Of a DNA stretch of 64,000 nt, positions 5,362-63,919 are shown one piece after another. The notes under the pieces were generated by a model. The model worked only from the letters and a program-made list of their open reading frames with translations. It did no database searches and was not told the origin of the DNA. The translations under genes and the position numbers were made by a program. The stretch's first letter is position 1. Every line of letters starts with the position of its first letter. The stretch comes from Tribonema minus. Lineage: Eukaryota > Sar > Xanthophyceae > Tribonematales > Tribonemataceae. The stretch spans positions 372,001-436,000 of the forward strand of contig JAFCMP010000531.1 of the NCBI GenBank assembly GCA_017506865.1, written 5' to 3'.

Positions 5362-8300
5362 TCAGTTCATGGAGCCGCGGCACTTGGCGGCGCCGCAGTG
5401 GCACGCAATCTTGTCGTTCTCGTACTCAAACTTGTAGTCGTACGTCACCTCCTCGCCGACCGCGAGCGCGCGCCGCGCGACGATGACCAGCTTCGGCACG
5501 CCGTCCACCGCCACGACCTTCGCGTCGGCGTTCGGGCCGCAGCAGTGATTGATGAAGCGCGCGGGGCCGCCGGCGCGCGTCGCGTCGATGATCGTGCTCG
5601 CGTCGAGCGCAAAGAGGTAGCACGAGCCGAGGCCCATCTCCTCATACTTCTTCTCGCGCTGGTCCGCGACGCAGCGCCGGATCTTCTCGCCCATGTACTC
5701 CACGATCATGTCGTTCGGCGCGAAGGGCATGAGCGTGAACAGGCCCCAGCCGTGGATGTGGCTGCGGCGCACCACGAGGCGCTGCTCCACGGGGATCTCC
5801 TTTAGCTTGCGGTAGCGCGCCGCCATGTTGGAGGCGGCCATGGCGGGGTCGGACGCGCCGCCGCCGCCGCCGCTGGCGCTGCGTGCGGCCGCTGCCGCCG
5901 CTGCGGCGGCGGCCGCGGCGGCGGCGGCGGGGGTGTGGTTCTTGCCGAGCTGCTTTGCGACGCTGCGATGGACGATGCGGTTGAAAGCAACGCACAGGGT
6001 GTGATGGTCAGGTACAGGGAGATTATAGCAAGTGGTATGCAGACTACTGTACAACTCCCCTGCACTTTCGTACAAGTAGCTCGTAACAGGCGCGTCCAGA
6101 AGAGTTGCGCATTTCAGGACAGCCAAAGACAAACATGGCAGCGATGCAGTTTCAGCAGTGACGCTACCACTATTGGTGCAGATATGCTGCTCTCTTTGCT
6201 AGCATGCACAAGTAAGGGACGACCTGAACGCTCCTCACAGTATCACTACAGCTGGCACATACAGCACCGCATGCGCAGGTGAAAGGAAGCGTAACCGCCA
6301 TGTAACCGCCATGAAACTGCCGCAACTGACCTGTACAGCGTGCGCGTGACGCGGCTGCCGCGGTACACCTGCGCACTCCAACTTCAACTGCAAGTGTAAC
6401 TGCAAAAGAAAATGAAACCGCAATATAACAGCCAAGTAACTGCCCCAACTGACCTGTACAGCGTGCGCGTGACGCGGCTGCCGCGGTGCACCTGCAGCGC
6501 GCTCTCCTTGGGCTCCGTGCGCGCGCAGCCGCTGGGGTTGTCGCGCACGCGCGCCTTCTCCGCCGCGCAGCGCCGCTGCCACGCAGTCACCGCGTCGCGC
6601 GTCGGCACCGCCGTGCAGTAGCGGTAGCGCACGGGCTTGGCGAGCTTGCCCGCCTTCATGTCGCGTTTGCGCTTGCGCGCTGCGCGGTCCTCCTGCTGCG
6701 GCGGCGCTGGCGGCGCCGCTGCTGCTGCTGCTGGCGGCGGCGGCCGCGACGGTGCTGCCGGTGCTGGCAGGGTATCGCTGGCGCCGTCGGCAGCAGCGGT
6801 GGGTTCCTGTTGACGTGCGAGCACAAGCGACATGCATGGTGTGAGTTGGTGCAGCATGGTTGGAGTGAGCCTGCCGACAAAGGGAGTCTTAGAGACTGGG
6901 CATTGCGTATCCGATAGAGTGCCGCTCGCAGTGTCACCGTGCTTGTAGCACGGCTGCGCAAACCATCTGCTTGCCGTGCAGGCCTGCTGCGTGACTGCTC
7001 TAGTGTATTCTACTGCGCGTGCGCTCTCAAGACCTGAGCGCTGGCAACTGCACAACCCTACATGTAACCCGAAGACTGACTCTAACCCTAACCCACCTAC
7101 CGAACTGCGACAGACGACAGGGCGCAGCTCATACAACGCTGCGGCGCAGGCTGCTCACAAAGCTGCTGCAGCGCCCCGCCCAGCAGTTCCTGAGCGCGAG
7201 TTCACAGCTCAATCGACATCACATTCTTGTCCTGCAGAACAGGACCGCTCAGTATGAGTAACCCTAACCCTAACCCTAACCCTAACCCCGACCGCCCCAC
7301 ACCATCACCCTTCACAAGAGCCCCACCTGCGACACGTCACCGCCAGTCATCTTGGTGCGCACGCGTGGCGCTCCCCCTCCCCCCCCCGCCGCGCGCGCCG
7401 CCGCCGCCGCAGCGTCCTCCGCCACCGGCGCCGCCGCCGCAGGCCGCGCCGCCGCCGCAATCACCTCCGGCAGCGCCTCGATGTGCCGCCGCACCGCGCG
7501 CAGCCCTACACCAAAGAACTGCGCGCCGTTGAGGCCGTAGCTCACGCGCGCGGTGCGCGGGCGCAGCAGCCAGTCGTCGGCGTCGCGCAGCGGACGCCGC
7601 GCCGCCTCGAGCTGCGCGAGGAGCTCCTCGTATGCGGCTTCCGCGGTGGGCGCGGCGATGGGCGCCTCCGGCTGGTCGAGGCTGGTGATGCGGAAGAGAA
7701 CGCCGGCGCGGCGGGGGGGGGGGGCGTTGGGGGGGGCGGCGCGCGGGGACGAGGGGAGCTGAGCGCTGTCCAGGATCTGCGAAGGGGGGGGACGGGGGGG
7801 GGAGAGGTTTTGACTCTCAGACTCTGAATGTGGTTCCTCAGCTGAGGGCGCACGATAGAGTCTCTAAAGATGATGGAGCGCGTCAGAGCGTGGACGCTGT
7901 ACAGTATTGAGCTTACACATACACTTGGCGACCGCATGGGACCACCAAAATGTCAGACAGACACTGGCCTGACAGTTACGTGAACTGTAACACTTACCCT
8001 AATCCTACACCTTACCCTAACCCCCCCAATATGATCACACCAGAGGCTGCGCGCGGTGCAAGGCGTATCGCGCAGGTAAATAGCTGCGTGACAGTTGACA
8101 TCCAGTCCAAAGACAGAACGGTGTTGCGCCAAGTTGCACGCCATGGGCGTTGGGCATGTTGGCAGTGGCAAGTTGTCAGATGAGATGCGGCCCACAAGTG
8201 TCAGTGCTCAGCTCGTCGACATGAGGAGCCACGCGCTCAACTGCATGTGTCACATGGCATGTGGCAGTAGGCGAATGCTTGTCACGCTGCAGTGCCTGCC

Positions 8301-11300
8301 TGCACAAACTGTGACAAGCAACGCTTTGAGGTGTCTACGTATCGGCTACGTATGCGGCGCACGCACCTCGCACACGTACGGCGTGCGCAGCAGCGGCCGC
8401 AGGCGGCTCCAGAACAGGCGCACGCTCCTGAACCCCACGGGGAACACGTGCGTGTCCGAGAACCAGCCGGGAACGGCCCTCACTTCCCCTACGCTCAGCA
8501 CCGTCAGCGCCCCCACGCGCAGGCACGCGTCCGCCAGCGACGCCCCCGACGCCGGCGCCTTGATGTTCGGCGGCCGCGGCTCAATCTCATAGTAGCGATC
8601 CGCCCCCTGCGTGAGCTCCTCCTGCGTATACGGCGTATCCTCGCCGTCGTCCGCGCCGCCGCCGCCGCCGCCGTCACCGCCGCCGCCGCCTCCGCCGCCA
8701 TGGCCCTTGCCGCCGCCGCCGCTGCCGCCGCCGCGGCCCTTGCCTCCGCGCCGCGCGCCCTTGCCGCGGCCGCCGCCGCCGCTGCCGCCGGAGCGCCCGC
8801 CGTCGGTGCGGTGCCATGGGCAGAGGACCTTGTTGCCGCGCGTCAGCGCCGCGGCGGCGGCGACGGCGCACGGCAGGTGGTACGTCTCGCCGCACTGCTT
8901 GTGGTGGCAGCGCAGCGTCGCGCCGACGTCGCCGCACTGCGAGCAGCGCGTGCCGCGCGCGTTGGTGCGCGCCGCGTAGACATTCAGGAGGCGCCCCGAG
9001 GTCGCCGTTTCGACCAGCACGCCGCCGGACCAGGCTGCGCGTGTGTTTGGGGGTTCGGGAAAGGGGGGGGGGGGTCAGTGTGTGGCGGGAGGGTTTGTGG
9101 GTGAGGGGCGCTATTGGGGTGTATTAAAAATTGACCAGCACGCCGCCGGACCAGGCTACACACGTTTGGGGGTGCAGGGGAGGGGAGGGGGCATGGGGGG
9201 TTGATATGAGGAGGGCGGACGGGGTTGAGGAAAACGGCAAGTTGTGTCTGCCAGGGTGTCACTGTAAGCCCATGGGCTATAATGCAGTGTGCATGCATTA
9301 GTGCAGCACGAACGACCTAGACTGGAGTTATTCCTGACTGTGTGTGCATACGTGCAGCGGTGGTGACGGTGGGAGCTCAAAAGAGCAGGCGCAGCAGCAG
9401 AGCAAGGACTTGTCGATGTGTCGTTCTGCATATTAGCACTAGAGTGCTGAGCAAATTCCTGTCATTACGTCAGTCAACAATGCGCCAAGGAGAAGACCAT
9501 CAGCTGCGAGCACAATCCCTTGGTACAATGCCAAGGAAACGAGTTACACTGCAGGCAGACAAAAACTGCACTCCTCGTGCATGCGCAATTCACATGCAGC
9601 CAGCTATGACCAGTATTCTGAAGACGACACTTTGCACGTAAACGCACATTTGCTCAATACACACACCACATCTTGATTTAAGTAATCACCGGTGCATAAT
9701 AGCCACAAGTGTTCACTACTCACATGCACAATAGGCATGCAGCCAGCTTGTGCCGCCGTCCATCGGCAGCAGCGTGCCGCCGATGGTGTCGTCGCCGCTG
9801 TTCTGGCACATGACGCAGTAGCGCGTGTCGTCCCAGTCGCCATATGCTTCCTGTGGCACGGCGGCGGCAGTTGCAAGGCAAGCAGATGAGTCAGGGGGTG
9901 TCAGGGCACAAGGGGGCGTGTGTACACACCCCAGTGAGCACTGAAACGATATGTATACATCTGTGCATAGCTTGAGCACCGAGACCATTGCTAATGGCAA
10001 CGCAGTGCCATTATCGTTGCAATTGCGTGCATCATGTGATGATGTGATGAGCGCTGTCGGTGCCCGCCATGACACGCGTGATGCAATTTTTCCGTCCGTT
10101 GAACGTGTATGACCTCCGTCTCTCGCTCTGAATGTGCGTACTTTCGGTCACTACAGGCAACCATGAGGTCATGTGGTCAGGAACGGTCTGAGGGCTACAT
10201 GAACACATCGCTGAGCTGGTGCAGAGTGCAAGAATGCACCAGTGAACAACAACGTGAACAACGTGACGCGCAGTGCATGAGTGTCCTGTCAGCCACCGCA
10301 GCAGTTGTTGTTCCAGTACTTGAGGTATCAATACCCAATTGAGGTATGGATCAGGGTACGAGCCACGATGTTCGCTGCATGGCTGAGCACAGGGCGAGTC
10401 AGCGCTCCACTGCAGCAGCGTAAACGCAAACAACGTCCCGGCGCGGACACGGTCACCTTGCCCTATGCAGGCATGCAGCTCTCGCCCTTGCACGTACGCA
10501 CTACTCTGGTGGCACACACCACAACTTCAACTTCAACAGTTGTCAGGCGACGCCCGGGCAGAGCCCTCGGGCAAGTCCCCTGAAAAGCTTGCACGCACTG
10601 TCCTTGCGCTCATACTCTGATTGCTGCACATGAACTCTGGCCGTGGACACAAACCTCAACCTCGACAAGTAATCTTCAACTTCACCTGATGCGCCGCAAA
10701 TCTGTCGTCGCCGCTCCACCCCGCGAGCCCCGCGGGCGCGCGCAGCCCCGCCGCCACCGCCAGCCGCGCCACGCGCGCCGCGCCGCGCCGCCCGCCCCCC
10801 GCCCACACCCTCTCCCAGTGGCTCACGTCCTGCACGACGCGCGCGCCAATGTCATACGCGCCGTCCATAGTGGCGTTGAGCTCCGCCACATCTTCCGCCA
10901 GGCCGCAGTTGAGCGCTGCCACTGCTGCGGAGGCGCCGCTGGCGGCGGCGGCGGGCTGCTCGCCCGTGTCGCTGCCGGCGGCGCTGCTGGCGTCGGCGCT
11001 CGGCACGGCGCTCACGCAGCGCGCAGGCGCGGCAAGCGGGTGCGGAAGTGCTGCGCGGGGGCGGCGGCGGCGGCGCTCCGCGGAGGAGGTGGCAGGGCTC
11101 CGCTGCTGCTGCTGCTGCTGCTGCTGCCGCCGCTGCTGCTGCTGCTGGTGGTGGCTGTGAGCTGCCGCAGGCGCGAGGCCGTTGACTGCGCCGTCGGCGG
11201 CAGTTTTGTCGAGCGCGCCGTTGCAGCTGTTGGCTGCGCTGCTGCAGCCGCCATTCATCGGCGGCGGCGGCGTCGTTTCGCAGTGCGCCGGTGGCCCTCC

Positions 11301-11391
11301 GCCCTGCGCAGGCGCTCCTGCAGCGGGGCCCTGCTTCTCTGCACCATTGCTCAACAGGCCTGCTGCTACCGGCACCGCCAGGGCTGTCGAT

Positions 11392-11430
<39 letters not shown>

Positions 11431-14400
11431 GCCGCACCAGCGCCTGGGGCTTCCACAGCGGCAGGCAGCGCCGCGGGATGCAGCGCGCCAGTCGTTGGCA
11501 CTGCGCTCGCGCCGTTGGTGACAGCTGCAGTCAGAATTGCCGCCGCTGCCGCCGGTGCCGCAGCGGGCTGGGGCGCCTCCCTGGTGCCATCGCCAGCGGC
11601 GACCAGCGTCAACGCAGCAGCGGCCGCGATGTCGCTGCTGCCGGAGGGACGGTCGCCTGGCACTTCTGATCGCCGTTCCCTGCGGGCGCTGCCGCCGGCT
11701 TCTGCTGCGCCACTGGCGACAGACCAAGCGCCTGCGGACGCCGCTGACGGCTGAGCCTCCGCCATAAGGCTGGCCGCAGCACCGCCGCCACCGCCACCGC
11801 TGCTGCCGCCGCCACTGCCGCCGCCACCGCCGCCGCCGCCGCCGCCGCTGCCGCTGCCGCGGCTGCCATTCATCTGCCCTGCCGCCGCCGCACCCTCCGC
11901 CGCTGCTGCACCTTCCGCGCCAGACCTACGTGAACTCTGCGCTGCAAGGGCGCCTCCATTGCCGTTTGCGTGCGCCGCAGCACTGTCCTCAGCTGCGGGC
12001 GCAGTGTCAGCGGCGCACGGTGACGCCGGCGCGCCGCCGCCGTTGCGCAGCTCCGGCTCTGAGCACTGCTGCAGCACTGCCGGCGGCTGCAGCGCACGGC
12101 GCACGTCGTCATCGATCGGCGCGCCTGCCTCCGCCGCCGCGACGGCGGTGAAGGCCGCGGCGCACATGGCGAGGCGCAGCACCATCTCCAGCGGCAGCTG
12201 CGGCGCGGGCGTGCGGAGCTGCCGCTGCGCCTGCGCAAGGGTTGAAGTTAGGGTTAGCGTGCGCAACGACGAGGTGCGTCGCGGTATGCGTGTTGCGTGA
12301 GTGTAATCTTTGCGCTACCCCCTACATGATCCTCACACCCTGGGTGTGAGCGATGGTGGCGGAGCTGTGCTGGCCGGGGGGGGGGGGGGGGGGGGGGGCT
12401 TGCTGTTTCCTTCTGGACCGGCCGTGGCGTCATGCACTGATGACGAGTACAACAACAACCCAACAAGGCTTTGCATTGCAAACATGCACACATACTTGTC
12501 ACCTCAGTCTGACTCTGACCACTACCCAAGCCAAAGGCGCGTCCTTGCAGCTCCAAATGCTGCCTCAAGATCGCAGTTCGCGCACGCAAGCCCAAACCAA
12601 TTGCGTCCCGGCCACTTCAAATGCTTATTCAAGATCGCAGCTAGTGCACGCAAGCCTTGTCAGTCGCGTCACCTGTTCGGCAGCAGCCTTCTCATTGACC
12701 GACGCGCAGAGCTGCGCATACGGGCCGCCCGCTGCGCAGCCGCCGTCGAATGAGTAGCCGTGGCTCCGCAGATAGAGGATGAGGGAGTGTAGGCGCGCGC
12801 CGCCGTGGACGCGCATCATGCGCACAAACCTGCAGACAAAGGGGCACGTCACATGTTGAACTTTGAGTTGAGGTCTGTACATGTCAGGCTGGGGTTGGTG
12901 GGGGCTGCCGGCAGCGCAGAGCTGAACAATGTGGAAGACAAGGGGCATGGCGCATGTTGAACTTTGAGTTTAAGTCTGTAGTCGACATTCCAGGCTGGTG
13001 TAAGTGTGGGCTGCAAGTACGCAGAGCCGAATGTGGACAACGTGCAGGGGTAACGGCGACGGCTGACGAGGCCTGCCTCTGCGGCGGCCACACACAGACG
13101 CGGTGTGTAGCATTTGAAAGTGGTGGCGCAATTCCAACAAGCGCACAGCAAGTTCAGTGTGGCCTTCCGAGTGCACTGCATGACTGCGGTTGAAGTAGCA
13201 GAGCAATCCCACCATCAAAGCACGCTGCGAGCTGGTCACAACAGGAGTACTTGAGGAATTGGCAATCTCAACCCTAACTTCGACCCTGACGCACCTCGTA
13301 GCTCGTTGGCGCACAAACACGGGCAGCTCTTGCACCGCGCTGCTGCTGCCGCTGCCTTGCGCTTCTGGCACACCGGCAGTGCCCATCTGTACTAGGCGCG
13401 AGACGCCTTGGTGTATGAGCCGCTCGTACATGGGGCGCAGCGGCTCTCTGTTGAGCCGTGTTGCAACGACACCACAACAGCGGGGCCGGGGTCAGTATCA
13501 AACTGATTGATACATGAGAGTATTAATCTGTTTGTTCAGGAGTGTTTTGCGTAGCGGCTCTCTATTGAGGCGCGTTGCAACGACAACAAAAAGGCAGCAC
13601 AAACAGTGGGGCCAGGGTCAGTCTCAGAATGGATCATGTACTTCCGAAGTATATACTTCAAAGTACCAGATTGTAGATGACAATGGATGTTATGATACTT
13701 CAAAAGCAAGCAATAGATCGTTTTAAATATCTTTGACAAGGAGTATTTTGCACAGAATGGTCAGATGGGACAGGGGTCAGTCTCAGAAGCAATGATACTT
13801 CAAAGTATCAGATTAATTTATCTAATACTTCAAAGTATGAAAAGTAGTGCTTTGCGTAGCAAGGCCACGGGCTAACGAGCGACGAGAGGACACGTGTGAA
13901 ACAGCAGGTGAGGATCAAGGACGGTGCGCAGGCAGCAGTGACGCCCTGATGAACACCCGCATAGAGTAGCAGGAAAACCTTGCAAAATCGACCTTTATGG
14001 AGCAGCATGCTGTGAAGGGAGAAACACGCGGGCTTGTCTGCAGCCATCAGTGAGGTTGCACTGGTCGACGTACAGTTGCTCAAACATGCATCAGCTATGA
14101 TACCTGTCGGAGCATATAGCAGTTACATGCTCATTGCCGTTTGCACGCTTGACGGTTACGGCAGTACAGTAAACAAGACTACAACACATTCACCTGCTAG
14201 CAGCACACGACTGACGTCGACCTTCTGTTGCATTGGTAACCTTGATGTCTGCCTCTGCCGTTGTGGATCAACAGGGTAGTGAGCAACAGCTCTTTATGTT
14301 GCATCAATACCTGCCTGTCGTATGGCACATGTGTGCATACCTGCGTACACTCCAGTTTCCAGCGCAGCAGCGTACTATTCATGGTGCAAGCTGCAATCCC

Positions 14401-17400
14401 CAGTCCCACCTGGAGCTACGATCACTGCATCACAAGCTTCAACTTCAACTTCAACCGCACCTGACCAGCGACTGCGCGGCCTCCAGCAGCCGCCCCGCTC
14501 GCGCCGCCGCCGCCGCCGCGCCGCCGCCGCCGCCGTCCGCCTCCCGCAGCACGCCCAGCCTGCGCTGCTGCAGCTCGTGCACCCTTTGCGCCAGCTCTCG
14601 CGCCAGCGCATTCTTCCCCAAATGGTTCCCCACCGCCCCCCTCGGCGCTGCGCTCTCCGCCGCCGCCGCCGCCGCTGCTGCCGCATCGCTGCCGCCGCGC
14701 GCGCGCTCTGCATCGCCGCCATCATGGCCTATGGAACTGGGGCCAGGGCTCGGCGACGCAATGCTGCTGCCACTGGAGCCGCCGCCATTGAGATGAGTGT
14801 GACCGCCGTTGCAGCCGGTGCCGTTGACGAGGCCGCCGCCGGCAGGCACGACGCTGAGTTCGCCGCCGTTGCTGTCATCGGCACGGAGGCGCGGCGCCGG
14901 CGCCGGCGCCGCTGCTGCTGCCGCCGGTGCCGCTGCTCCGCCGCCGCCGCCACTGCTGCTGGATGAGCGCTGCTGCTGCGCCTGCGCCTGCGCGCGGCGC
15001 GTGTCGTATGCGTGCTCCAGCGCCGCGGCGCCGAGGCAGACATCGCAGAAGAAGTCCACAGTCGCCTCCGCGTTTGCGACGATCGCTGCGTCCAGCTGGC
15101 CGTGGCTGAGGCCCTGGGCGCCCGGCAGCTCGTTGCGTGCCTGCGGCAGCGGCAGCGGCGATGTTGGGCGGCGTGCGCGCAGTTGGTGTTGGGGTTAGGG
15201 CTGACCTCAGCCCTAGGGAGGTTGTTGGGGTGCATGGCTTATGATGAGAGCGTGCGTGCGCCCTAAGGTTAGGGTTAGGGTTGAGGGACATGCGCAGCAC
15301 ATGCGGCAGCTTTGCAACAGGAAGGGGTGAACGTCAGGGATCAGATGCGCAGCGCGTGCAACAACATGAGCGCTTGTGATGATGGGTGGTCAAGCCTTGA
15401 TGAACGCTTTAGGCCATGACTCTTCAAAGCGGTTCTGCTACATCAACATGATCCCAAGCCTCACTGGAAGTCCTACCTCGGACCTCCTTCATCATCCAAT
15501 GTCCTCAGTGTAAACAAGGCCCCTGCAGCTGTGATGACCATTCAGCAACACATGACACTCGCTGTAGCCGTGAGTGTCACGAGACAGCCTCAGATCACCA
15601 TGCTGAGGGTTAGGATTAGACTGCGCATCATACCTACCCCTAACCCTACGCTGCTGCCCATGCTGCGTGGCACCAGGTCCTCCTCAGACGCAGCTCTGGC
15701 CCCAACCTCAACCAATGGGGCCGGCCATTCCCCCGATTTTCGTTTTATGTACTGCACACCAAGTCCTGCCCCTACCCTCCCACACCCCAAGCACCCAACT
15801 AACCCCCTTGACCTTCACCCTACACCCACTGTAACTCTCGCGCACCTGCGCCTGCCGCAGCTTGGACTCCACGCGCTGCCGCGCGTCGCACGCCGCCGCC
15901 GCCGAGGCGCTGCACTCCGCGTGCACCACCAGCCGGCACGCGTTGCAGCGCGCGAGCGCGCGCCGCCGCTCGTGGATCGCGGCGCCGCACATGGGGCACT
16001 TGCCGCGCAGCGCCTGCAGGATGTCGGGGGGCGCCCACGGCGACGGCGGCGCCGCGCGGCGCGCGATCGCGTACGCGCGCTTCGTCTCCGTCAGCTGCTT
16101 GCGCCGCGCCGTCAGCGCCGCGTCGAGGTGGCGGCGGCGCTCCACTGCCGCCGCCGAGGGCGGCGGAGGCGGCGGCGGCGCTGCCGCTGCTGCTGCCGGC
16201 CAGCGCGCCGCTGCCGCCGCCACGTGCTCGTCTCTGGGGCCCAGGTGCGGGTGGGCGCGGTGCTGCTGCAGCTGCTGCTGCTGCTGCAGCAGCTGCGCCT
16301 GCAGCTGCGCCTGGCGCAGCTGCTGCTGCTGGAAGTGCTGCTGGTGCAGGCGCGCCTGCTCGGCCTGCTTCTCGCGCAGTGCGCGCTCGCGCGCCTGCGC
16401 CTGCAGCGCGCGCAATCGCGCCGCCTGCGCGCCGATGCACTGGAGGCAGCGGTCGTGCGCCGTGCTGCGCGCGTTCGGCGGCGACGGCGCCTCGCACGCG
16501 TCGCACTCCACGCACTGGCCGCAGATGAAGCGCTCCTCATTGCCGCCGCCACCGCCGCTGCCGTCGTCGCCGCCGAGCGCCAGCGGCGGCACGAGGCAGC
16601 CGCGGTGGTACGCGCGGTCGCAGCGCTCGCACATGACCAGCAGCTCGTCGTCGCGCGGCGACACCTCGCAGCACTCCTGCAAGGCGGCAGCGGCGGCACG
16701 ATAGCGAACCGGTGGCAGCATACTTCAGCACAAGCGGATCGAATGCATGAGCGGCGGTACGGAGGCAGCTTGATAGTGGACCACCATCGTACGACTACAC
16801 AGCCACGACAGGCGCGTCAGGCCGCCCCTCCAAGACTGCATACTTCTCGACATACACATATACAAATCTACAGATGCAAGGATATATATGTATCCACTGA
16901 TATACATGGTCCACGATACCAAATGAACACATCTGCGTACCTCGCAAGCCTTGCAGTTGTGGCACTGCCACAGCGCGCGTGCCACCGCGTCAATGGTCGC
17001 CTCCCCATGTATACACGTCACCATTGTTGCTAGTATTGGTGAATTACATGCTTACATGTCCACTGATATACTTGATTCAGCGTTTATTAGGGTTGGGGTC
17101 AAACATCCGCACACCTCGCAGGCCTTGCAGTTGTGGCACTGCCACGAGGCGCGCGCCACCGCGTCCATGGTCGCCTCCCATAGATCACATACTTCTCGAC
17201 ATACACATAGAAGCATACAATCTACACATCACACAATATGCACAGGTATCCGCTGATATACTTGATATGCCACATCATTTTCACTACATCAAAAGAATTG
17301 TGTATGCGTACCTCGCAGGCCTTGCAGTTGTGGCACTGCCACGAGGCGCGCGCCACCGCGTCCATGGTCGCCTCCCATAGATTACATACTTCTCGACATA

Positions 17401-20400
17401 CACATAGAAGCATAATCTACACATCACACAATATGCACAGGTATCCACTGATATACTTGATATGCCACATCATTTTCACTACATCAAAGGAATCGCGTAT
17501 GCGTACCTCGCAGGCCTTGCAGTTGTGGCACTGCCACAAGGCGCGCGCCACCGCGTCCATGGTCGCCTCCCATAGATTACATACTTCTCGACATACACAT
17601 AGAAGCATAATCTACACATCACACAATATGCACAGGTATCCACTGATATACTTGATATGCCACATCATTTTCACTACATCAAAGGAATCGCGTATGCGTA
17701 CCTCGCAGGCCTTGCAGTTGTGGCACTGCCACGAGGCGCGCGCCACCGCGTCCATGGTCGCCTCTCATAGGTTACAAACATGTTGACATGGCAAATACAT
17801 GCATCTATTAAAATACACTACTTGATGCACCACATTGAATAGAAGTAGACACGCCGCGTACCTCGCAGGCCTTGCAGTTGTGGCACTGCCACGACGCGCG
17901 CGCCACCGCGTCCATGGTCGCCTCCGGTGCGCCCGCGCACCACGGGTGGAACGCCTCGCCGCAGTCCCTGCAGCACAGCAGGCGCCGCGCGTCACCGCCG
18001 CCGCAGCAGATGAGGCACAGGTCCTTCCAGCAGCACGACAGGGCCTCGTCGGGGGACATCCACGCGCTGGCGGGGGCCTGCACAAAGAGTTGAAGTTGTG
18101 AACGAAGGAGTTGAACTTTTGAGGCGGGGGCCTGAAGCGACGTGCAAGAGTTGAGCTTCATGACTTCAGCTGTGCATTTGGGTGAAGCAGCACGACAGGG
18201 CCTCTCGTCGGGGGACGTCTGCGCGCTGGCGAGGGCCGTGCGTTGTGGACAACAAGAGTTGAAGTTGTGAGGTTGTGGCTTCTCTGTTTGATGGAGAGCA
18301 GATCCGGCCGTACCAAACACCATGCTATGAGTCGAGAGACTGGGTAGACTTACTTCACTTAATGTACACACAGAAATGCATGGAGGCGGGTGACCACACT
18401 TGTTGCAACTTGAAGTTTGCAACCTCGTTGTGCAACAGACACACACACGCACGCACACACACACAATACACTGCGACACCTTGCTGGGCCCTGCCGCTTC
18501 AGGGGCGTTCAAGGCACCAACTTCAAGTTCAAATACCGCGACCACAATTGGTCACCTTGTTGTGTCCTGCCGTTTCGGGCGGGTCCGGGCAGGGCACCAG
18601 CTCTCCAACTTCAAGTTCCAGGGTAGCGCCCACCAGGAGATCCTTCTTCTGCGCCGGCGCGATGCGCGGTGCCTCCTGTGGCTTCGGCTTAACTTCAAGC
18701 AGCGCCGTTTCAATCTTCTTGCCAAACTCGCTCGGCTGCGTGTAGAGCTTGTTCTCCCGCAGGAGGCTTGCCCAGACCTGCGCATTGAAGTTGAGGGTGA
18801 AGTTGAGGTTAAGGGGGTGGTACGGTGAGAGACGCGGGTGAAGTGAAGTGGGGCTCCCAGGGGGGCAGCACAAATGACATCGATAATCTCATGGTGACGA
18901 GCAGGGGAGGCTTGCCTAGATTCTGAGCTGTGCACTGAACCTGAGGTTGGCAAGGTGAGGAGAAGTCGCCGTGTAGACTGCTATGCATGCAATCAACAGC
19001 ACGTCATGTTCATGCATGAATGCCGGAGAATCCCCAGGAGAGCCTCGCGTGATCCACATGACCGCCTCTTCAAAGGTGCTGTAGGGTGACGTTATGCAGA
19101 ACCGCCGCCGCTCTAGCGGCGCCCTGCACGTCACACAGGCACGCGCGACAAAGCGCCGCTCGCCCCCGCCCCACAAAGGTGGTGCCAACGCTCTGAGGAT
19201 TCGTTCTGGCGCAGGGCAAGAGAAAGCGCAGCTGGGGTTAGGGCTAGAGCTAGGGTTCAGGCTAGGGCAAGGGCTCGCAGTCTCGATACCCAGTCCGTAC
19301 TACTTCAACAGCAACTGAGCGCTGCGAAACGCTGCCGCGTGTCAGTCAGCAGCCGCCGCCGTGCGCGCGCCCGTCCGGTGCGCTTTCGATGGCCTTTGAG
19401 ACCCTGGTGGCGCAATTGGTTCTGACCTCAGGTCGTGCTCACAACTGCATCAGGTCTCCGCGGTGCGCAGCCTCTACATACATACATACATACATGCATG
19501 ACTGCATACATGCATACCTGATTGCTGGCGCGGTAGAAGTCGCGCGCGGCGTGGGTCACGGGGTCGTCCGGCGCGTTGCCTCTACATACATACATACATA
19601 TATGACTACATACATACATACCTGGTTGCTGGCGCGGTAGAAGTCGCGCGCGGCGTGGTTCACGGGGTCGTCTGGCGCGTTGAACACGAGCGCGTTCTGC
19701 ACGAGCAGCTCGCAGTCCTCGCGCATGGCCTGCGGGCTGCGGTAGCGCGCCGCCGCGACCTTCTCCGCCATCACGCTGAGGCTCATGGGGCGCACGATGC
19801 GCGCGGCGTACGTCGGCGCCTGCGCCGCCGTCACGGGCGCGTAGAAGAGGGCGCGCGCGTCGGCGGCGACGAGCGCGCGCAGCACGCCGCGGTGCACGCG
19901 CCCGCGACACGCGGGGCACACGTAGTCAAAGGGCTTGCCCCACAGCAGGTGCGTGTCGTCGCGGATCTGGCGGAACTCGTCCGCGAGGCGCACGCCGTCG
20001 CAGCGCGCGTGCACCCACGCGCGGCACTGGCAGCAGAAGATGGTGCGCGCCTCGTCCTCGTCCGCCGCGTCCGACTCGTCGTCGCCGCGCCACGCGACGT
20101 CGCACACCGCGCAGTAGTTGCCCGCCGCGTACTTGCCGACGCACACGTCGCACAGCGCGATCGCCGCAGCGTGCGGTCCCGCGACGTGCCCCGCCGTCCA
20201 CGGCCGCCCCCCCAGCCCCGGCAGCTCGAGCGCCGCCTCCCAAGGCTCCGCCTTGCTGAGTGCGTGGTCCAGGCGGTGCGCGGCGTGCACGTCGCGCCGC
20301 CGGTGCGCGCGCAGCGACGGCCGCGCGAGCCGCGCCGCGCCGCACCCCTCGCAGCGCTCGCACGCCGCGCAGCGCCAGCCGCGCGGCAGCGGCGCGTCCG

Positions 20401-22886: not shown

Positions 22887-25800
22887 ATGAGGGGAGCGAT
22901 TGGATGCGTTGTCTGCAGCGGCTGCGCTCTGTCGGCAGCAGCGTTCGCCGCGCAACACCACGTGAGTGCGAGCTCGGAGAAGTTGAGATAGACTTGAGGT
23001 GTGTATCGGCTTTGGTGCGCTTGTGACAGGTCTTTGCCTCTTTCGTGCGCTGCGCCTGTTGTTGCAGGGTGGATTCGTACCACAGGCGCGGACCGCTGCT
23101 CGTCCTCATAGTAATTGGGTCGCCCAGTCGTCATGCCGACGACCGTGGCACCGGAGTATGAGCATGGTCATCATGGACCCTACTCCCTCAGTGTCATCAT
23201 CACCAGTTGCAGCAGTCAATGTCAGGCCGTCAAGGCATGACACTGGTGAGTCATGCCTGTACCACCGTTTGCAGCCGCTTCAGCTGATTTCGCCTGCGGA
23301 ACCTCTGGGGAACGTTCGCTGCCTGCGACACAAGCTACCTTGCAAGCTCTATAAGTCGCTCTCATTCACGCTGCAAATGCATTCATACTCATCAGCAAGT
23401 CCAGTACTAGTCTTTGCACTCAACTGCTGCCCCCACTTCTGAGACACAGAAACGGGCCGCGATCCCACTCGCGTCAAGATCTTCGACACCACCCTCCGGG
23501 ACGGGGAGCAGTCCCCGGGCTGCACGATGACGCGCGAGGAGAAGCTGGTGGTGGCGCGGCAGCTTAGCAAGTTGGGAGTGGATGTGATAGAGGCGGGGTT
23601 CCCCATTGCCTCGCCGGGGGACTTCGAGGCGGTGAAGGAAATTGCCGAGACAGTGGGGACGGCCAACAATCCGCCCATCATCTGTGGCCTGGCGCGCGCG
23701 CTGAAAAAGGACATTGACGTGTGCGCGGAGGCGGTGCGGCCGGCGCGGTTCCCGCGGATTCACACGTTCATCGCCACCAGCGACATCCACATGGAGCACA
23801 AGCTCAAGAAGACGCGCGAGCAGGTGCGCTCATTGCCTGCGGCGGTTTTTGTTGCGGTTATGCGCGGTGGCGTACGCACTGCGGATGAGATTTGCACGCG
23901 AGCTGCGCTTTGCGCGTAGTAGTAGTGATCATAGTGTCATGATCTCCCTGATATGTCAGTCAGCGCAGACCATACAACACACATACATACACACCACACA
24001 CCAGTTTGGCATCGGAAAGCGCGGCAGACGACACAGGTCTGTCTGGCACTGGCAGACAATGCATGTGAGCCTGAGTCTGAGTCTGAGTCGGTTTCGCCTC
24101 AGATAGCTGGTGGTTGACTCACGCGAACATGGTCTATAGGCTTGTTAAGTCAAGCAAACCCACATGTGTCCAGCGGTGACTGGTTCTGTCACTGAAAGGT
24201 ATGCAACACTTGCCAGCAACCATATCCGCTGCGCCGTTCAGGGGTTGATGGCGTCGCCAAATGTGTCGTGGTGCGTGTCTGATGACTATAGGCTTGTTAA
24301 GTCAAGCAAACCCACATGTGTCCAGCGGTGACTGGTTCTGTCACTGAAAGGTATGCAACACTTGCCAGCAACCATATCCGCTGCGCCGTTCAGGGGTTGA
24401 TGGCGTCGCCAAATGTGTCGTGGTGCGTGTCTGATGACGGCTCTGTTGCTTGTCGCACAGCACGAGCAACTCTGCAGGCCAATGCCATGCGCAACTCAGG
24501 GCTAGGGCCAGGGCATCGCGCACACACATCAGATTGTGCCGCCGACGTGCCTTCAGGGCTTGATACGTGTTGGCACCCACGCTTCATGACACACAACTTC
24601 AAGTGTTCTTGCAGCGCCCATCATCCTTCATCGAGGTCTGGCATCACGCGTCACGGACCGCTCTGACGCGCTGCATCCCGCAGGTGCTCGCCATTACGCA
24701 CGAGATGGTGTCGCACGCCAAGTCTCTGATCGATGACGTGGAGTTCTCAGCGGAGGATGCGCTGCGGTCGGACCCGGAGTTCCTGGCTAAGGTGTTCAGC
24801 GTGGCGATCGCTGCTGGCGCCAGCACCATCAATGTGAGTTGAAGTTGAAGTTTTGTGCCAGCCCTGCTGCGCATGAGTTCTGCTTGCATGACTTGAAGTT
24901 TGCATTTCGCAAGCACAAACAGTCGTGGTCAGCGAGCAGCACTGCGGCCTGTGTCGCTGAACATTTGCGGCACGGCACGTCACAGTTGCAGTGCTTGCCG
25001 CCTATCTGAAGACTTGACTTGCAGGTTGCAACCAGCATCAGCGCTGTGTGCAGCGGTTCAGTCAACAGTTACATCACGCACCTGCTCTGCCGGAGGCGTC
25101 ACCGCTGGCGTTGCTGCAGCGGTCGCCTTCGCTAGCAGGCCATCCACATAGCACTGCTGCTATATGCTTGAGAGGAAAGTTTAGTCATGCGCACGTCAAG
25201 TAAACGCCCGGCAACAGTCTACCTGAAGTGCAATTGAGGCCGTGTCGTGTTAAGCGCGGATTCTGCGCGTACATGTGGGCATGGCCTCAGGCGCTCAGAG
25301 CGCTGCTGTATCGCCAGACAGTGTTCACCATAGGGGACATGTTCAGCCACATGCGGTTGGTGACGCACAGACAGTGCGGCCAACGACTTTCAGGGTTTGC
25401 ATGAGGGTTAGGTTTAGGGGTAGGGTTAGGTGTGGTGCCGTGGAGCAACAGCCAAGTGTCACAACCTCGCTATTGTGGCTGCGCAGAGACTCCCATCCTT
25501 ATCAAAGATGAAGTTGTGCAGCCTCAAGTGCACTGCGTGTTGTTCATGGAGCCTCAGCGCAACTTCAACTGTTGGTGCGTGCCCGTAAAGTTCAACATGT
25601 GCAGCCCCAGTGCTCTGCAGTCATATACAGAGTCTCGGCGCATATTTCACTGTTGCGTGCGCCCATGAAACCTTTACACAATAAAAGTGAGCGTTTGTGG
25701 TCAGGACCAGAAAGTCGATTCGCTCTATGCTGCAGTAGATGCAATCGATCCCTGCCCGTACACGGCAGAAATCCAGGTCGAACGCATAGTATGGTCTTGC

Positions 25801-28710: not shown

Positions 28711-28741
<31 letters not shown>

Positions 28742-37989: not shown

Positions 37990-38065
37990 GGCTGCTGCGG
38001 TGGCTGCCGAGGGCGAGAGAAGAACTTCTCCGGCGGCCGCGGATCCTCCTTTTTGACGGAGCCGC

Positions 38066-57100: not shown

Positions 57101-60100
57101 AACGTCAGATTGAATGTTGGCAATGTTGAAATGAAGACAAGAAGTACTATGCCCCCAAGACAAGACTGGCATTGAAAGCTCTTGCATTGACAGGAACAGC
57201 GCTTGTTCAAGTGCAGGAAGGGACCCGCTTGACTCAAGTTACAGGCACAGCACCCACCGCCTCTGGCAAGAGAGAGAGAGAGGGTATTCCCATGCCACAA
57301 AAACAATAGCAACAACCTTAGGGTTAGGGTTAGGGTTTGAACCCTAACCCTAACCCTAACTTTAACCCCTGCTTGTTGGCGACACGTAACGGTGTGGGTG
57401 TAGCATTACGATGACCAAGTCAGCTCCATGAATCTACTTAGGCCAGAAAGATGTAGTGTCGCAGGTTACGCCGTGAACAATCACCTACAGTGTAGGTACA
57501 GTAGACAAAGCTGAATATTTCATGGAAAGAAGTATTTACTTGCGATGTTTTGTACCCCACCTGGTGGCAAATACTGGACTGTGAACACCCGCATGCACAA
57601 GACACTTGTGTGGGAGTTGCGCAACAATGACCAAGTCAGCTTTTGGGATGTAGGCCAGAAGGATAGGCCAGAACGATGTAGTGTCACCAGTCACACCGTA
57701 AACCATCATCTACAGTGTCAGTAGACAAAACAGCATACTTCAATGAAGTCGATTTACTTGCAATGTCTTGTGCTTCACCTACTTGGTAGTGGCAAATACT
57801 GGAATCTGAGTATCGGCGTGCACAACCAAAGAACGCAGCATTCAGCGCATATTGACAAAATTCTCGAAAATCCTTGCATCATATCATACGGATTCTCTGA
57901 CGCTCATGTGACGTTGGACAGCGTGGGGAGTACCTGGCACAAAGACTGTGGTCTTAGCAGCCAGAGGTACACAAGTACTTTTGGAGTACATCGCATGGAA
58001 GACCTCGCTTCCGATGCACTGATTGGAACAGAGTGGTTCAATTGCGATAAATGCGTTGCGTGAACAGAATGATACACGGCATTCCGCCAGACTACAAGGT
58101 GTCGTGACGGGCCATTCGCTGGGTGCGAGCACTGCCAGGGCAGTATCGAACAACCCGCGCGTGGATATCATTGATAACATACATCGCACCTATCATAAGC
58201 GCAAGCGTAGGTTATACCACACACTAACACCCACCCATCTGCATCACATCATAACATACATGACGCATCGCACCTATCAGAATGCGCAAGCGATGTAAAC
58301 CACGCAAGATCATACCACACACTACACACACCCATCTCGATGCACACGCGACGATGAAGCACACTCAACCATGACAACACCCTCCACTCACCACAGCGCG
58401 CACGTGATGTGCGCCAGCGCACGCCGCCCCTCGCCCTCCCCCTCCGCCGCCGCCTCCCACTTCAGCGCGCCATCCGTCCCCGTGCACAGGCAGCACGCAA
58501 AGCGCGCCCCGTCCCCATCCGCGCGCCCGCCCCCTCCCGCAACGCATGCCTCGCACAGCCATCGCCCCTGCTGCGGCGGCGCGCCGTAGCACGCGGCGTG
58601 CACCGCCAGCCCGCAGCGCTCGCCGTCGCACAGCAGCAGGGGGTTGTCGCCCCCCCCGCCTTCCACGGCGCACACGGCGCACGCGGCGTCATCCGCGCTG
58701 CGGCGCGCGGCGCGGTAGCGGCTGGCGGCGGCACGCAGCCGCGGCGCAGCGCCGCCGCTGACGGCGGCGCCCGCGCCGCTGCCCCACGGGCGCGTGAACG
58801 CCGCGTCCGCGTCCGCGTCGCTGCCGCTGCCGCCGCCGCCGTTGTCCGGACACGCATCCGATAGCGCTGCGTCGCTGGCAGCGTCGCGGTGGGCTGCGTC
58901 GTCCGCCGGCGGCGCGGCGGCGGAGGCTGCAGCAGCGAATGCGTTGACGTTGGCGGCAACGGGGGCGGTGTGGGCTGCAGCGGTTGCTGGCGTTGAGTCT
59001 CCAGGGCGCTCTGCGCTGCCTGCGGTTCTGCTGTTGCCGCCATGCGCAGCCTGCGGAGAGTGGCGGGTAGATGAAGCGCACACGCCGCCTGTCCCTGCAG
59101 CGGCGTCAGCTCCAGCACCGCCGCGGCAGATAGTAGCGCCGCCGAAAAAGGGCGACAGGACCGGTGCCGCCTCAGAGTCCGGCTCCGCAGCTTGCGGCGG
59201 AGGCTCGTCAGGTGCCGCGTTGGTGTCGGCAGCGCGTAGCGCAGCTGCCACAGAAGGCATGGCTGCCTCATGCTCCGGCCGCCCCGCCGCCGCCGCCGCA
59301 GAGTCCTCACCAGCAGCGCTTACAGGCTGCCAGTGTACAGAAGACGAAGGAGCTGAAACAGCAGCAGCGAGCGGCAGAGTCGGCGGCGCAGGCAGTGTGG
59401 CCCGCTGGCACCGGCGCCGCTTGCCCGACGCTGCAGCGCCTGTAGCGCCAGTGGCGCCGGCGCTGCTGCCGACGCTGTCCGCCTTGGGCAGGAAGGATGA
59501 AATGGTGGGGAACAGGTCGGCAACTTCGTCTGCATCGCCCTGACTCTGGGACTGCAGCTGGCTCCACGACCATCCATCCGCCCCCGCAACATCCCCGCCG
59601 CTGTCCCCTTGCTCAAGCAATGCTTCCATGGCTAGTGCGGGCCGGCTGTGCTGCAAATCGATTGCCGCGGCCGCTGCTGCCGATGTGTCTATAGGAGCCG
59701 CGGCGCTAGCGGCAGCAGAGTCTTCTAGCACTGCGCCGTCTGCAGCGGCGGCGGCGTGTGAGGCAGGCGCTGCCGCCTCTACCGCCGCTGCCGCCGCCGT
59801 TGTGTCAGCTGCAGCACCTGCGGCGGCACCGGCAGCTCCACAAGGTGACGTGCCGGCGTCGGCTTCCGCCGAGGCGGGCGGAAGAGGCGCTGCCGCTGCG
59901 GAACCAACGACTGGCACGGCGGCTGCGTCTGCTGCTGCTGCGGCGGCACCTGCTGCCGCTGCTGCGGCAGCTGAGGCAGGCGCAGCGCTTGATGGAGCGT
60001 CACCATGCACGCACACAGCAGCGCTAGCATCAGCGGCTCCTGCGCAACAGAGCATGTTTGCCGGTGATTTCGGCAACATCATCCTGCCATTATCGCCGGC

Positions 60101-63100
60101 TGAGACCGTCTCCGCGTGATCACTGGCGCCTGGAAGCGGCGACACCTCCCCAGGCAGGTCTACAACTGCGCCATCGGCGGCAGGCGCCGCTTCCCCTATA
60201 CGCTCAACAGCGCTGTCTTCCGCCCCCCCATAGTGCATGATGCCCACCCCCCCATACTCCGAGTCCCAGCCACCGCCGTCCCCCCAGTCATCTTGACAAC
60301 CAATAGGGGACAGAGGCTCAGGGATGGGGGATAGGGATTGGGGGCTGGCAGCCTCGGCGAGCGCTGCTGCTGGAGGGCTGCCAGTCGGCGGCGACGCGGG
60401 GCGCGTGACGCCGCACGTGCGGCAGCGCGCGCGGCTCCTGCGGTACGAGTTGCCGCACTGCGCGCACGCCCACTTGTCCTCGCCCCCTGGCGCCGCCGCC
60501 GTTGTCGATGCCGCTGCCGCTGCTGCTGCGCCCGCAGCGCCGGCAGCTGTCGACTGAGCACTGGCGGCCTCCGGGCGCGCATCCACAACGCTCAGCAATG
60601 GCGGAGCGTCCCCCGCGCCATCCATCGCGCCCCTCGACGGCGATTTTGGAGCTGCGCCTTCGCCTGGAGATCGCAGATCCACTACCGCCAAAGCGTCCGC
60701 CGCGCCCGCAGCTGCATGCTGTTGACCGGGGCGCGCCGAGCAGACGGACGAGGGGCTACTGCAGTCGCTGCCGCCGCCGTCGTCTGTCGCTGCAGCAGCA
60801 CGGCGCGAACTGGCACTTCCAGCGCCTCCGCGCTCGGCACACCGTCGCGTGACACTGGCGGTGGCGCGCAGAAATGGCGCATCGGCGACAGCAGGCAGCA
60901 GCTGTTGCGCTGCTGCCATTGGCGCCGCCGCCGCCGCTGCCGTCGGCGCCTCGGTCGGCGATGCCGGTGACGGCAGCAGCGACGGCGCCTGTGATTGCGG
61001 CGGTGCAGCAGCCCCGCAAGCGCTGCCGCCGGAGGCGGCGTGGCGGCGCTCCGCTCCGCACATGCCGCACGCGCTCTTGCCCGCCAGCACACGCAGGCCG
61101 CAGACGCACTGCCACCGCTCGGGGCAGGGCAACACGTTGCGCGCCGCGCTTTTCTGCTGAGCACTGCCGTGGTGAGCATCGCCGCGCCGCGCTGCTGCTG
61201 TGCCTTCCGAGCGTGCCGCGTCCGCGCCGCCGGCGCCGCCGCCGCTGCCGCCGCCGCCGGGCGATCGGTCGCCGCCGTTACGAACCAGCCGCTTCTTGCG
61301 CAGCGCTGCTGGCGCGGCAGGCTTGCCCTTGGCGCGTTGATCCCTGGCAGTGGTGGACTCGAACACGTCAGCGTCCGAGTCGCTGTCGGAATCTGATGAC
61401 TCTATGTTGATGGCGCGCTGCCGCGGCTTGTTGAGGCTCGTGAAGCGCTTGATGCTGGGCTTGCGCGCCGCCGCTGCTTTGCCCCCCTCCGCGCCCCCCT
61501 CCTCCTCTTGAAGTTCGTACTGCAGCAGGAGACGCTCCATGTCGGCCGGCGCGTACAGCGTCTGCGGGGTGCGCAGAGGCAGGTGGTGCGTGTGTCAGCG
61601 GCATGGTGGTATGGGCAGTGAGGATGTCATGTGCACGCGCAAGTTCACACACAGAAACACATCCTGCAACAAAATACAATGTTGAACATACATGATGCTG
61701 CAAACAGACCTGAAGTTGGTTCGCAAACAGCACATGGCGCCGTGTAGGTTGGCAGACGAGGCGTGAAGGACACATAAGCTGTTTGAATGCTGGCCCCCTT
61801 GTCATTCCTACAATGTTGCGATACCACTGGGTGCGTCATGTATAAATCACCTGCAGAAGCCCTGCGGCTCCCATTGTAAAAAAAGCGCAATCATCGTTTC
61901 AGCCAGATGGTTGGCATGAACTGCAACAACTTTTGTGAACGTCAACACACACACACTGGTCTGAACCTCAACAAGCCGGCATGAACCTTCAAAAGCATGA
62001 CATGCAACTTAAACAAAATCTGGTGGAGAGTCACCCACATCCCACTCCTTGTTGGCGATGAAGACGCGCATGTCCAGCAGGGCAGTGCTCCGCAGGGACA
62101 TGGGCACCGCGTGTGTGCGGCAGCGCTCCTGCTGTGCGAGCCAGCCGTACCCCGCATCGAGCTTGGGGGCCCCCCGATCATCGCTGTAGTCCTCCTGCAC
62201 AGTGTAGATGTGTGTAGGTCACAACACGGCAGTGAGAATAGGGGTCGCAAAGCCCTGACAGGAAGGCTTGAAGCGAAATACCGCTTCAGGGAAGAAGCGG
62301 TATTATGCTGTGGTGAATGCCTTTGCAGGTGCGTGGTTTAGAATACTGGAACTCGAGGCAGGCAAGCTAGGGGGGGGGTGATTGAGAGTTTATGTAACCC
62401 ATGTACAGCGCCATTTCATGCCATAGGCAAACCACCAACACCGTTCCCCTTGCATTTACAGCCAGTGAGAGCAAGACATCTGCTGTCAAACAAAACATCA
62501 TCCCTTGCGCCATGACAGCAAGGGCGAAAAAGCTAAGCAGGAGCATCCTGGACCCGCACTGCAATGACCTCTCAGAGTGCACTGACACTTTAGGCTTTGA
62601 ATGAGCCTCTTTTGCCCCCCTCCCCCTGCACGCCCCCCTGTCCCTCATGCACACAACACAAGTACAGCGTGCCTCAAGCACATCACATGAGTATTATGAG
62701 CTCCTGCCATCACACTGATGCACTGCCATCAAGGGAGCCTAGACCGCCTTGCTGCATCGCACAATTCAGCGCCCAAACTTCACTCAAACAAACATACCTT
62801 CAGGAGCCTCACTTCACAGAAGTACATACCTTCAAGACCCTCATTTCAGCGGCCGTGAGCCGCCAGTCCTCCTCCTCAGCGTCATCCTTGGACCGCCCCC
62901 CCACCCCCGCCTTCCCCTTCGTCTTCGCCTTCCCCCTGCCAGGCTTGTACCCCCCCACCTGGCTCAGCCGGTACTCGTCTATCACCATCTCCCTCTGCAC
63001 CATCTCCGGCTGTATATAGCGCGGTATCATGCGCTCGCTGCTCTTGATCTGCAGCTCGAACTGCCCTGAGCGGGCCTGCAGCGCCTTGGTGATGTGACGC

Positions 63101-63919
63101 GATTTGGAGCCGCTGCCCTTGAGCTTGGCCTCCTCTGACCCCTGGCGTAACACGCAGCGCGTCGTCGCGAGAGGGATCGGGAGAGGTGCACCGATGACAT
63201 CAGCTGCGTGCGCGCGCTGCAGCTGATACAAGTTCAACTTCAGCTTCAACATCGACCTCACTGTTGAGGTAGTCCAACTTCATGTTGAACACCAACGTAG
63301 AGGCGGGTGGTTAATGAGCCCGGTGCATCAGACCGGTGCGCGTGAGCGCAGATGATAGTGATGCTCACAGGATGCTCGGGCGGTAGTGACTAGGCAATCG
63401 CATCTACTACCATGTGTTGAGCACGTGTTTGCTGACATTGCTTGCGAGCGCAGAGCAATTGCAAATTATGCATGCAGTGGCAAGTTGCGTCATGGTCCAT
63501 GAGTGAGGCAGCGTCAGGCATGGGACAGATCGAAGCCGCTACTTGAAGCGTTGTCGCATAAATCATCAGAGCATATAGCTCTCTCAGCCTGAGCCGCAGC
63601 CGCACTCTGAGTCTTGTCTGCTTGCAGCACAAAGAGTGTTGGCTTCGTAGCTACCCCATGCCTCATCAACGCCATAATGTACTCCTTGTTGTGTGTATTA
63701 TCTCGGTTGCTCGGTGAAACCGCGCCCATGCCGACGATAGCCTTGACTTCTCCATATGGGCGTGATTCAAGTGTCGGGACAGACGCGGCCCGAGACTGCC
63801 AAAACCGTTACCTTGAGGTTTGAACTTGAAGTGGGTGACTCACCTCTGAGACCAGGACGACAACCCTGCCAGCGCGCTTGCGGCCCGTGCGCCCCATACG
63901 CTGCACCATGCGTACAGGG
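51116..63919 (-). CDS. FANCM/Hef-like helicase protein with zinc-finger and PHD/ePHD insert, 5' end beyond window
   Basis: FANCM-type proteins remodel stalled forks and branched DNA in the nucleus. Exons: 63919-63844, 63141-62830, 62194-62039, 61561-58392, 57087-57003, 56208-56004, 55542-54735, 54395-54204, 53708-51886, 51460-51116. Exon 1 here is superfamily-2 helicase motif VI (VRMVQRMGRTGRKRAGRVVV); next comes the typical FANCM/MPH1 post-helicase segment (ITKALQ, MIPRYIQPEM). The 3170-nt exon has two RanBP2-type fingers (WQCVCG...CGMC and WACAQCG...CRTC) and a PHD finger; an extended PHD continues through the next two exons (HITCALW, NPDRKAKCL, HPQCAREHDYLLE, YCVNHS). The last exons carry acidic SFIDDGE, a degenerate XPF/ERCC4 nuclease fold without the ERK catalytic motif, and a C-terminal HhH (VPGLTAEQARMIV). 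Two exons (55542-54735 and 53708-51886) each need one extra base, both in G/C homopolymers. About 2390 residues lie in the window. Confidence 0.85.
51666..51875 (-). repeat. Degenerate TTAGGG-type tracts in intron next to exon donor
   Basis: Several CCCTAA/CCCTAG/CCCAAC units (minus strand TTAGGG-like) fill the first 200 nt of the last intron of the FANCM-like gene, starting about 10 nt after the donor at 51886. Confidence 0.75.
53485..53492 (-). other. Apparent -1 frameshift in a C8/G8 homopolymer (FANCM-like exon)
   Basis: Upstream of this run one frame codes the conserved-looking acidic Ser/Glu segment (DACDSESSHSESESD); downstream a second frame continues for 523 codons to the splice donor. 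One extra base would join them and restore phase to both neighbouring exons. Either an undercalled homopolymer, a real mutation or a hidden small intron. Confidence 0.6.
54856..54916 (-). other. Apparent -1 frameshift in C-rich tract (FANCM-like exon)
   Basis: The frame with PTPREGPKVLRKRRRR reads into Gly repeats; the continuing protein (KKGRKRARDEAPLDPRVYRM) is in another frame. As at 53485-53492, one extra base in the poly-C/G tract would restore phase. Confidence 0.55.
56216..56312 (-). repeat. Telomere-type TTAGGG tracts upstream of an exon acceptor
   Basis: GGTTAGGGTTAGGGTCAGGGG begins 9 nt upstream (transcript sense) of the exon at 56208, and TTAGGGTTAGGGTTAGG recurs at about 56291-56307. 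They form part of the intron's polypyrimidine-rich end on the coding strand. Confidence 0.8.
57317..57358. repeat. Head-to-head telomeric palindrome (TTAGGG)3-TG-(CCCTAA)3
   Basis: Two perfect 20-bp arms, 57317-57336 and 57339-57358, of opposite telomere-type repeats meet at a TG spacer. It lies in the intron between the PHD exon and the following ePHD exon of the FANCM-like gene. Confidence 0.95.
57408..57835. repeat. Tandem duplication of about 215 bp in FANCM-like intron
   Basis: Units starting near 57409 and 57625 share ATGACCAAGTCAGCT, AGGCCAGAA, GATGTAGTGTC, CTACAGTGT, TTTACTTGC and TGGCAAATACTGGA in the same order with moderate divergence. The whole lies in the intron between 58392 and 57087. 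Confidence 0.8.
62793..62815 (-). repeat. Decoy copy of exon end and donor (FANCM-like gene)
   Basis: ACATACCTTCA followed by CCTCA-TTC at 62825-62847 (end of the exon at 62830 and its donor) recurs 32 nt further into the intron with two changes. The decoy donor AAG or GAAG|GTATGT remains good (exon-end equivalent 62798). Confidence 0.75.

Follow-up and report, generated by a model that had tools for sequence, protein, structure and literature searches.

Duplication of short genic segments is a described route to new introns. In the ATP2A1 case of Hellsten (PMC3443670, PMC4974935), an AGGT-bearing exon segment was duplicated and a new intron resulted, and in the potato RdRp gene (PMC4974935) the duplicated segment covers the end of an intron and runs into the following exon, with an additional 83-bp duplication located within an intron. 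Small tandem duplications have further been described as arising by fill-in at breaks (PMC8355091). Here, we report copies of exon-intron junctions inside introns of the xanthophyte alga Tribonema minus, in a window of 64,000 nucleotides (contig C528:372001-436000; genome of 158 Mb in 554 contigs) that was analyzed together with a 20 kb flank on each side, 104 kb in total. Positions are counted from the first base of the window. We consider it probable (roughly 0.78) that small head-to-tail tandem duplication goes on generally in the non-coding DNA of this alga and that the copies are what survives of it.

Genes in the window are high in GC, rich in introns, and similar in character to those of green algae. 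They were modeled with a gene finder self-trained on the sequence itself, which returned the consensus donor AG/GTGMG and acceptor GCAG/G (the slash marks the junction). Domain or PDB matches span four junctions, namely donors 26711, 27762, and 28553 of a 2-isopropylmalate synthase gene and the intron 9723-9035, which interrupts a PHD-like zinc finger. The remaining junctions are based on the gene finder, with a domain match that is one-sided or just reaches the junction: a bromodomain match stops 8 residues before 19622, PHD fingers flank 17862 on both sides, and an esterase match starts at the residue adjoining -15227. Models at 80498-83612 with a TGA/TAG-rich tail were in the wrong frame and were disregarded. 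Gene models and the merging of duplications into families involve the analyst's judgement.

To identify copies, 60 nt of exon and 10 nt of intron from each junction were searched within the junction's own intron (60 introns listed of 62 modeled), and scores were compared with those from 100 null stretches taken from other introns. In 16 of the 60 introns, a donor or acceptor copy outscored the full set of 100 null stretches. Every null stretch was exceeded at 12/55 donor and 6/58 acceptor junctions, as compared to 2/42 and 1/49 exon-interior controls and 1/55 and 1/58 reverse-complement controls; at a score of at least 24, nine of 55 donors and four of 58 acceptors were retained and all four controls fell to 0. 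The alignments extend as far as the junction. These null and control tests reject chance or composition as the source of the copies and confirm that copies of exon-intron junctions within introns are real. Each copy carries a single splice site and an exon end, ~23-92 nt long in the window and reaching ~140 nt outside it, and the duplicated units extend over existing junctions into intron sequence. Copies adjoin each other on the same strand, head to tail and in direct orientation only. The gene models feature one intron per junction.

A preliminary description of the window had listed junction copies in eleven introns. Ten of these hold: donor copies at 6331, 17702-16941, 19518, 26852-27194, 27905, and 28686, acceptor copies at 9155, ~18236, and 35697-36029, and, weakly, a donor copy at 62798. 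For the eleventh, at 13561, the tandem duplication is real (13435..13631, with units 13435-13505 and 13549-13631) and the junction lacks support, since its exon edge at 13447 appeared in the first gene model and was gone from the refined one. The proposal that duplication over existing junctions makes introns longer is supported. Likewise, copy similarity does range from ~98% identity down to barely recognizable, which indicates that events of many ages are present.

The copies are not confined to this contig. In whole-genome searches with protein families, a copied exon end shows as a second, overlapping match, and such searches with four Pfam families yielded 269 matches and 159 pairs of neighboring matches within 1.5 kb. 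Among these pairs, four comprised an exon-tail copy downstream and four an exon-head copy upstream, with none in the reverse position; the other overlaps were one copy-copy pair and 16 ambiguous dovetails, possibly due to alignment fuzz. Seven of the eight pairs that follow the position rule, located on six contigs, were verified at the DNA level, where the copied unit takes in the junction and intron sequence. The CCT genes concerned are on C5, C51, and C135, and the remaining cases are on C511, C246, and C445; several of the cases have at least three copies. A kinesin case on C479, suggested by the protein search, did not hold up when the DNA was checked, and no clear case was identified among 49 matches to the P-type ATPase family. 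In one intron on C5 (352900-353900), the CCT exon end EYKKGESATNVE recurs together with its donor in seven or more degenerate copies. On C51 (21600-22900), copies of a CCT exon start were identified, one with 15 synonymous and 1 other codon difference. The apparent conservation of this copy, which would exceed that expected of a dead copy, is the clearest oddity in the dataset, though the copy was discovered by protein match.

Tandem duplication also extends beyond junctions. When 70-base tiles were screened for a copy at most 800 bases away with a score of at least 26, a direct copy was detected for 17.0% of junction (n = 400), 10.2% of intron (n = 4217), 6.8% of intergenic (n = 2635), and 3.2% of exon tiles (n = 1984). 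Inverted copies were detected for 4.0% of intergenic tiles and for 0.0-0.3% of tiles in the genic classes. Since inverted copies are few in genes and the position rule has no breakers, inverted or random copying was rejected. The duplications grouped into 17 families at junctions, 14 confined to introns, 11 between genes, and 4 in exons, although two of the 17 junction families (32206-33135 and 59742-60552) were later dropped as low-complexity exon. In 200 kb of another contig (C112:1000001-1200000), 8.3% of tiles had a direct copy versus 0.1% with an inverted copy. This sample, which was used for tile rates only, has ~51% GC, at least one conserved exon, and many local tandem copies, and the gene finder trained on C528 yields few genes in it. 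Duplications confined to introns or lying between genes are part of the process that also acts at junctions.

The manner in which the copies decay was evaluated by codon position. If a copy is free to change while its parent exon is constrained, substitutions at codon positions 1 and 2 accumulate in one lineage, and those at position 3 and in intron sequence in both; ratios near 2 are therefore expected. Among 11 families on C528, differences numbered 16/209, 16/211, and 29/211 at codon positions 1, 2, and 3, as compared to 108/510 for intron sequence. Relative to positions 1 and 2, this gives ratios of 1.80 (1.07-3.44) for position 3 and 2.78 (1.60-5.56) for the intron part, both of which include 2. 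An earlier pooled table (19 rows, ratios of 2.07 and 1.96) contained a self-alignment at 18555 and a spurious long alignment at 70008, which were removed. The copies on C528 thus fit a decay roughly like that of unconstrained sequence, with coding constraint weak or absent.

Direct observation covers the copies and their head-to-tail arrangement, the rule on their position, their presence on other contigs, and the way they decay; to explain these we propose the following sequence of events. Units of mostly ~60-300 bp would be duplicated head to tail in non-coding DNA. When a unit lies over a splice junction, the body of the exon would stay joined only to the outermost copy, that is, the first donor or the last acceptor, and it is this property of head-to-tail duplication that accounts for the order and strand of the copies. 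Splicing at the outermost sites would then give the normal protein, such that the event is probably tolerated and the surplus exon end, together with its splice site and a piece of intron, turns into intron. Wholly exonic duplications would alter the protein and mostly be lost to selection. Arrays could enlarge by further duplication or unequal exchange while their copies decay. The likely source would be end joining after staggered breaks had been filled in. In six recent two-copy duplications, one of them in the window, the excess over two units ranges from -21 to +1 base; the lack of long homology at the unit ends would agree with homology-independent end joining.

Several of our observations weigh against a general process of this kind. 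No clear junction copy was identified in 28 modeled introns at eight other loci, where donors (1/25) and acceptors (1/25) exceeded the null no more often than controls, which were equal or higher (0/25, 2/25, 2/17, and 3/18), and where the tile rates were 0.3% for intron, 4.4% for junction, and 4.9% for exon. These loci are a non-random sample, chosen at or close to matches of a low-complexity stretch, and have weak gene models. The claim of the preliminary description that junction copies occur throughout is thus borne out by the cases on six further contigs and is at odds with these eight loci, and the duplication process is evidently uneven across the genome. The number of families at junctions also counts against it. 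Following removal of the two low-complexity families and a shift of one exon edge by homology, 15 of 29 families lay at junctions, as compared to 7.1 ± 2.3 under random placement of units in gene spans. After exons were masked, junction pieces numbered 12, or 10 once pieces belonging to one earlier family were joined, versus 14 intron families, where simple arithmetic for random placement would give ~6 of 24 at junctions.

These counts, together with the higher rate of direct copies among junction tiles than among intron tiles, could instead suggest that duplication is targeted to exon-intron junctions through preferential breaks or nicks (at R-loops or at borders of composition or nucleosomes), with introns growing from their edges. 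However, a copy of exon sequence is recognizable for longer because its parent exon is constrained, and the expected number of junction families rises to 11.2 if exon-derived sequence is twice as visible and to 13.9 if it is three times as visible, factors that match the decay ratios. Slower decay of exon-derived sequence therefore accounts for much of the junction excess, although not surely for all of it. A real preference for junctions is possible but is not needed, since this visibility correction covers much of the excess; the weak excess that persists with exons masked makes some preference possible. Intron-only and intergenic duplications are also common, and the counts themselves depend on the judgement that entered the gene models and family merging. 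We therefore regard targeting as improbable. The more inclusive proposal that junctions are a true hot spot of tandem duplication in this lineage, that introns grow from their edges, and that some copies are used or serve as buffering decoys, appears doubtful; if true, it would provide a datable genome-wide record of intron growth. Collectively, these results uphold the lengthening of introns and the mixed ages of the events that the preliminary description had proposed and do not uphold junctions as the preferred target, given that duplications away from junctions stem from the same process.

Other observations that disagree with undirected duplication and free decay raise the possibility that copies are functional, as alternative donor or acceptor sites or as mini-exons under selection. 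In the six families on other contigs, differences numbered 8/214, 10/213, and 38/214 at codon positions 1, 2, and 3, and they pull the ratios for all 17 families up to 2.67 (1.56-4.71) and 3.26 (2.11-5.40). Most of this third-position excess stems from the C51 CCT gene with its largely synonymous differences. In addition, the array over donor 17862/17861 of a SET-domain gene (16813..17925, reverse strand; Tandem Repeats Finder [TRF] period of 195) has five copies, with exon edges at 17702, 17507, 17312, 17115, and 16941, whose exon parts are 92-98% identical to the real unit, whereas their intron parts are 73-80% identical with many gaps. This contrast exceeds simple decay, and we suspect, as a guess, unequal exchange inside the exon part. 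GT or AG is intact in many copies, including GT in all five of this array. Conversely, several copies have stops, indels, or a lost GT or AG, the decay observed on C528 fits little or no constraint, and amino-acid conservation was favored among the six other-contig families, those on C51 and C445 included, because they were discovered via protein matches. Function as a general explanation for the copies is thus very unlikely. That the copies are an assembly artifact can effectively be dismissed, since, even though tandem arrays are difficult to assemble and one 152-bp duplication is exact, most copies carry many independent substitutions and indels and they occur on at least seven contigs. A dispersed, introner-like element was rejected as a candidate in a comparison of window positions 5300-6500 with the genome, in which the duplicated segment 6266-6495 had no match elsewhere; this comparison covered one locus with 40 of 200 candidates scored, and, apart from one 46-base match, the remaining matches fell in low-complexity sequence.

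Most copies in the window are hosted by the SET-domain gene (5362..22609, reverse strand), which was predicted by the gene finder with Pfam matches to Bromodomain, PHD, zf-HC5HC2H_2, and SET and which we take to be trithorax/ATX-like. All duplications over its junctions are on the same strand as the gene. The duplication over donor 19622/19621 (19453..19682) consists of a single copy ending at 19518, with a unit of ~104 (TRF period 104), an exon part 95% identical over 61 nt, and a retained GTATGC. The duplication over donor 18556/18555 (18477..18619) is weak and old (exon part 79% over 58 nt; score of 24 versus a null maximum of 14), and that over acceptor 18078/18077 (18029..18270) left a copy near 18236 that has lost its AG. 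Acceptor 9035/9034 (9012..9191) has a copy at ~9155 that keeps AG, in an intron crossed by a Pfam match, and donor 6454/6453 (6266..6495) has a copy with its edge at 6331 that keeps GT and is 98% identical over 42 nt of exon.

The 2-isopropylmalate synthase gene (23133..29315, forward strand) was assigned from a PDB match (E = 5.9e-120) and the domains HMGL-like, HCS_D2, and LeuA_dimer. Its donor junction 26711/26712, of the intron 26712-27469, has at least two copies (26620..27206), whose exon parts share 86% identity along 92 nt in one copy and 77% along 78 nt in another. The gene finder chose the copy donor at 26852; the junction was set to 26711 by homology, and the PDB alignment links 26711 to 27470. 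At donor 27762/27763 (27685..27902), within HCS_D2, the copy at 27905 has kept the exon part and lost GT, while the copy of donor junction 28553/28554 at 28686 (28522..28718), within LeuA_dimer, retains GTGAGG. Elsewhere on the reverse strand, an array over acceptor 35575/35574 (35503..36118; copies at 35697, 35869, and 36029) adjoins an ab initio exon without a Pfam match, and the short copy of donor junction 62830/62829 (62798..62853) scored 19 versus a null maximum of 16 and fell under the cut-off when its exon part was scored alone. Intron-only duplications comprise one at 24134..24438 (152 bp, two identical copies, excess of 1 base) and one at 57392..57825, taken for comparison.

Further gene products in the 104 kb, from the gene finder and Pfam, are diphthamide-synthase-like and a DEAD/ResIII helicase. 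In the helicase gene, in the right flank, a duplication at 65129-65392 includes a copy that the gene finder takes as an extra 45-nt exon (65181-65225), which in the gene-finder output yields a repeated peptide, EAEEQAR. This predicted exon may reflect exon or intron gain through the same duplication process. Telomere-like CCCTAACCC motifs are located inside introns of the window (7259-7288, ~19230-19273, and 28636-28655) and of its flanks on C528, at a density per 100 kb of 22.1 in the 104 kb, 5.0 in the C112 sample, and 5.2 at the eight other loci; they are possibly traces of break repair.

The interest of these copies lies in their density and in the clock that they provide. Every copy that survives can be set against a parent exon under constraint, from which its divergence gives its age, such that the copies form a countable and roughly datable record of intron lengthening, borne by about one in four introns of the region. 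Many genes are thereby naturally furnished with more than one copy of a splice site, and RNA could show which of two identical donors or acceptors is chosen. For annotation they are a warning, as gene predictors take copies for exons; in the 2-isopropylmalate synthase gene, a copy was read through as coding.

No description of recurrent junction-spanning duplications was found in the titles and abstracts searched, a search for which most subscription journals lay outside coverage. The closest systems each share only some features with the copies described here. As in the Hellsten ATP2A1 case, the duplicated part of an intragenic tandem duplication is probably removed by splicing, with the protein unchanged; unlike that case, the unit spans an existing junction and an existing intron lengthens. 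The potato RdRp case (PMC4974935) was a single event that gave a new intron and exon, whereas here there are many events with up to five copies and usually no new intron. Tandem or mutually exclusive exons (PMC6071210) likewise stem from tandem duplication of an exon with adjoining intron, but in these the whole exon with both splice sites is duplicated and used, as opposed to an exon end with one splice site. The fill-in duplications of PMC8355091 are similarly short, head to tail, and lacking in end homology, although that report introduces a class under 100 bp, which most units here exceed, and a fill-in origin is for the present units a proposal. Introners (PMC9860276) are also intron-forming sequences that bear splice sites, but they are dispersed copies of one element, whereas each copy here matches its own adjoining exon. 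Overall, the introns of this region represent an unusually dense case of a known type of mutation acting on intron length, and their interest is not in a new mechanism.

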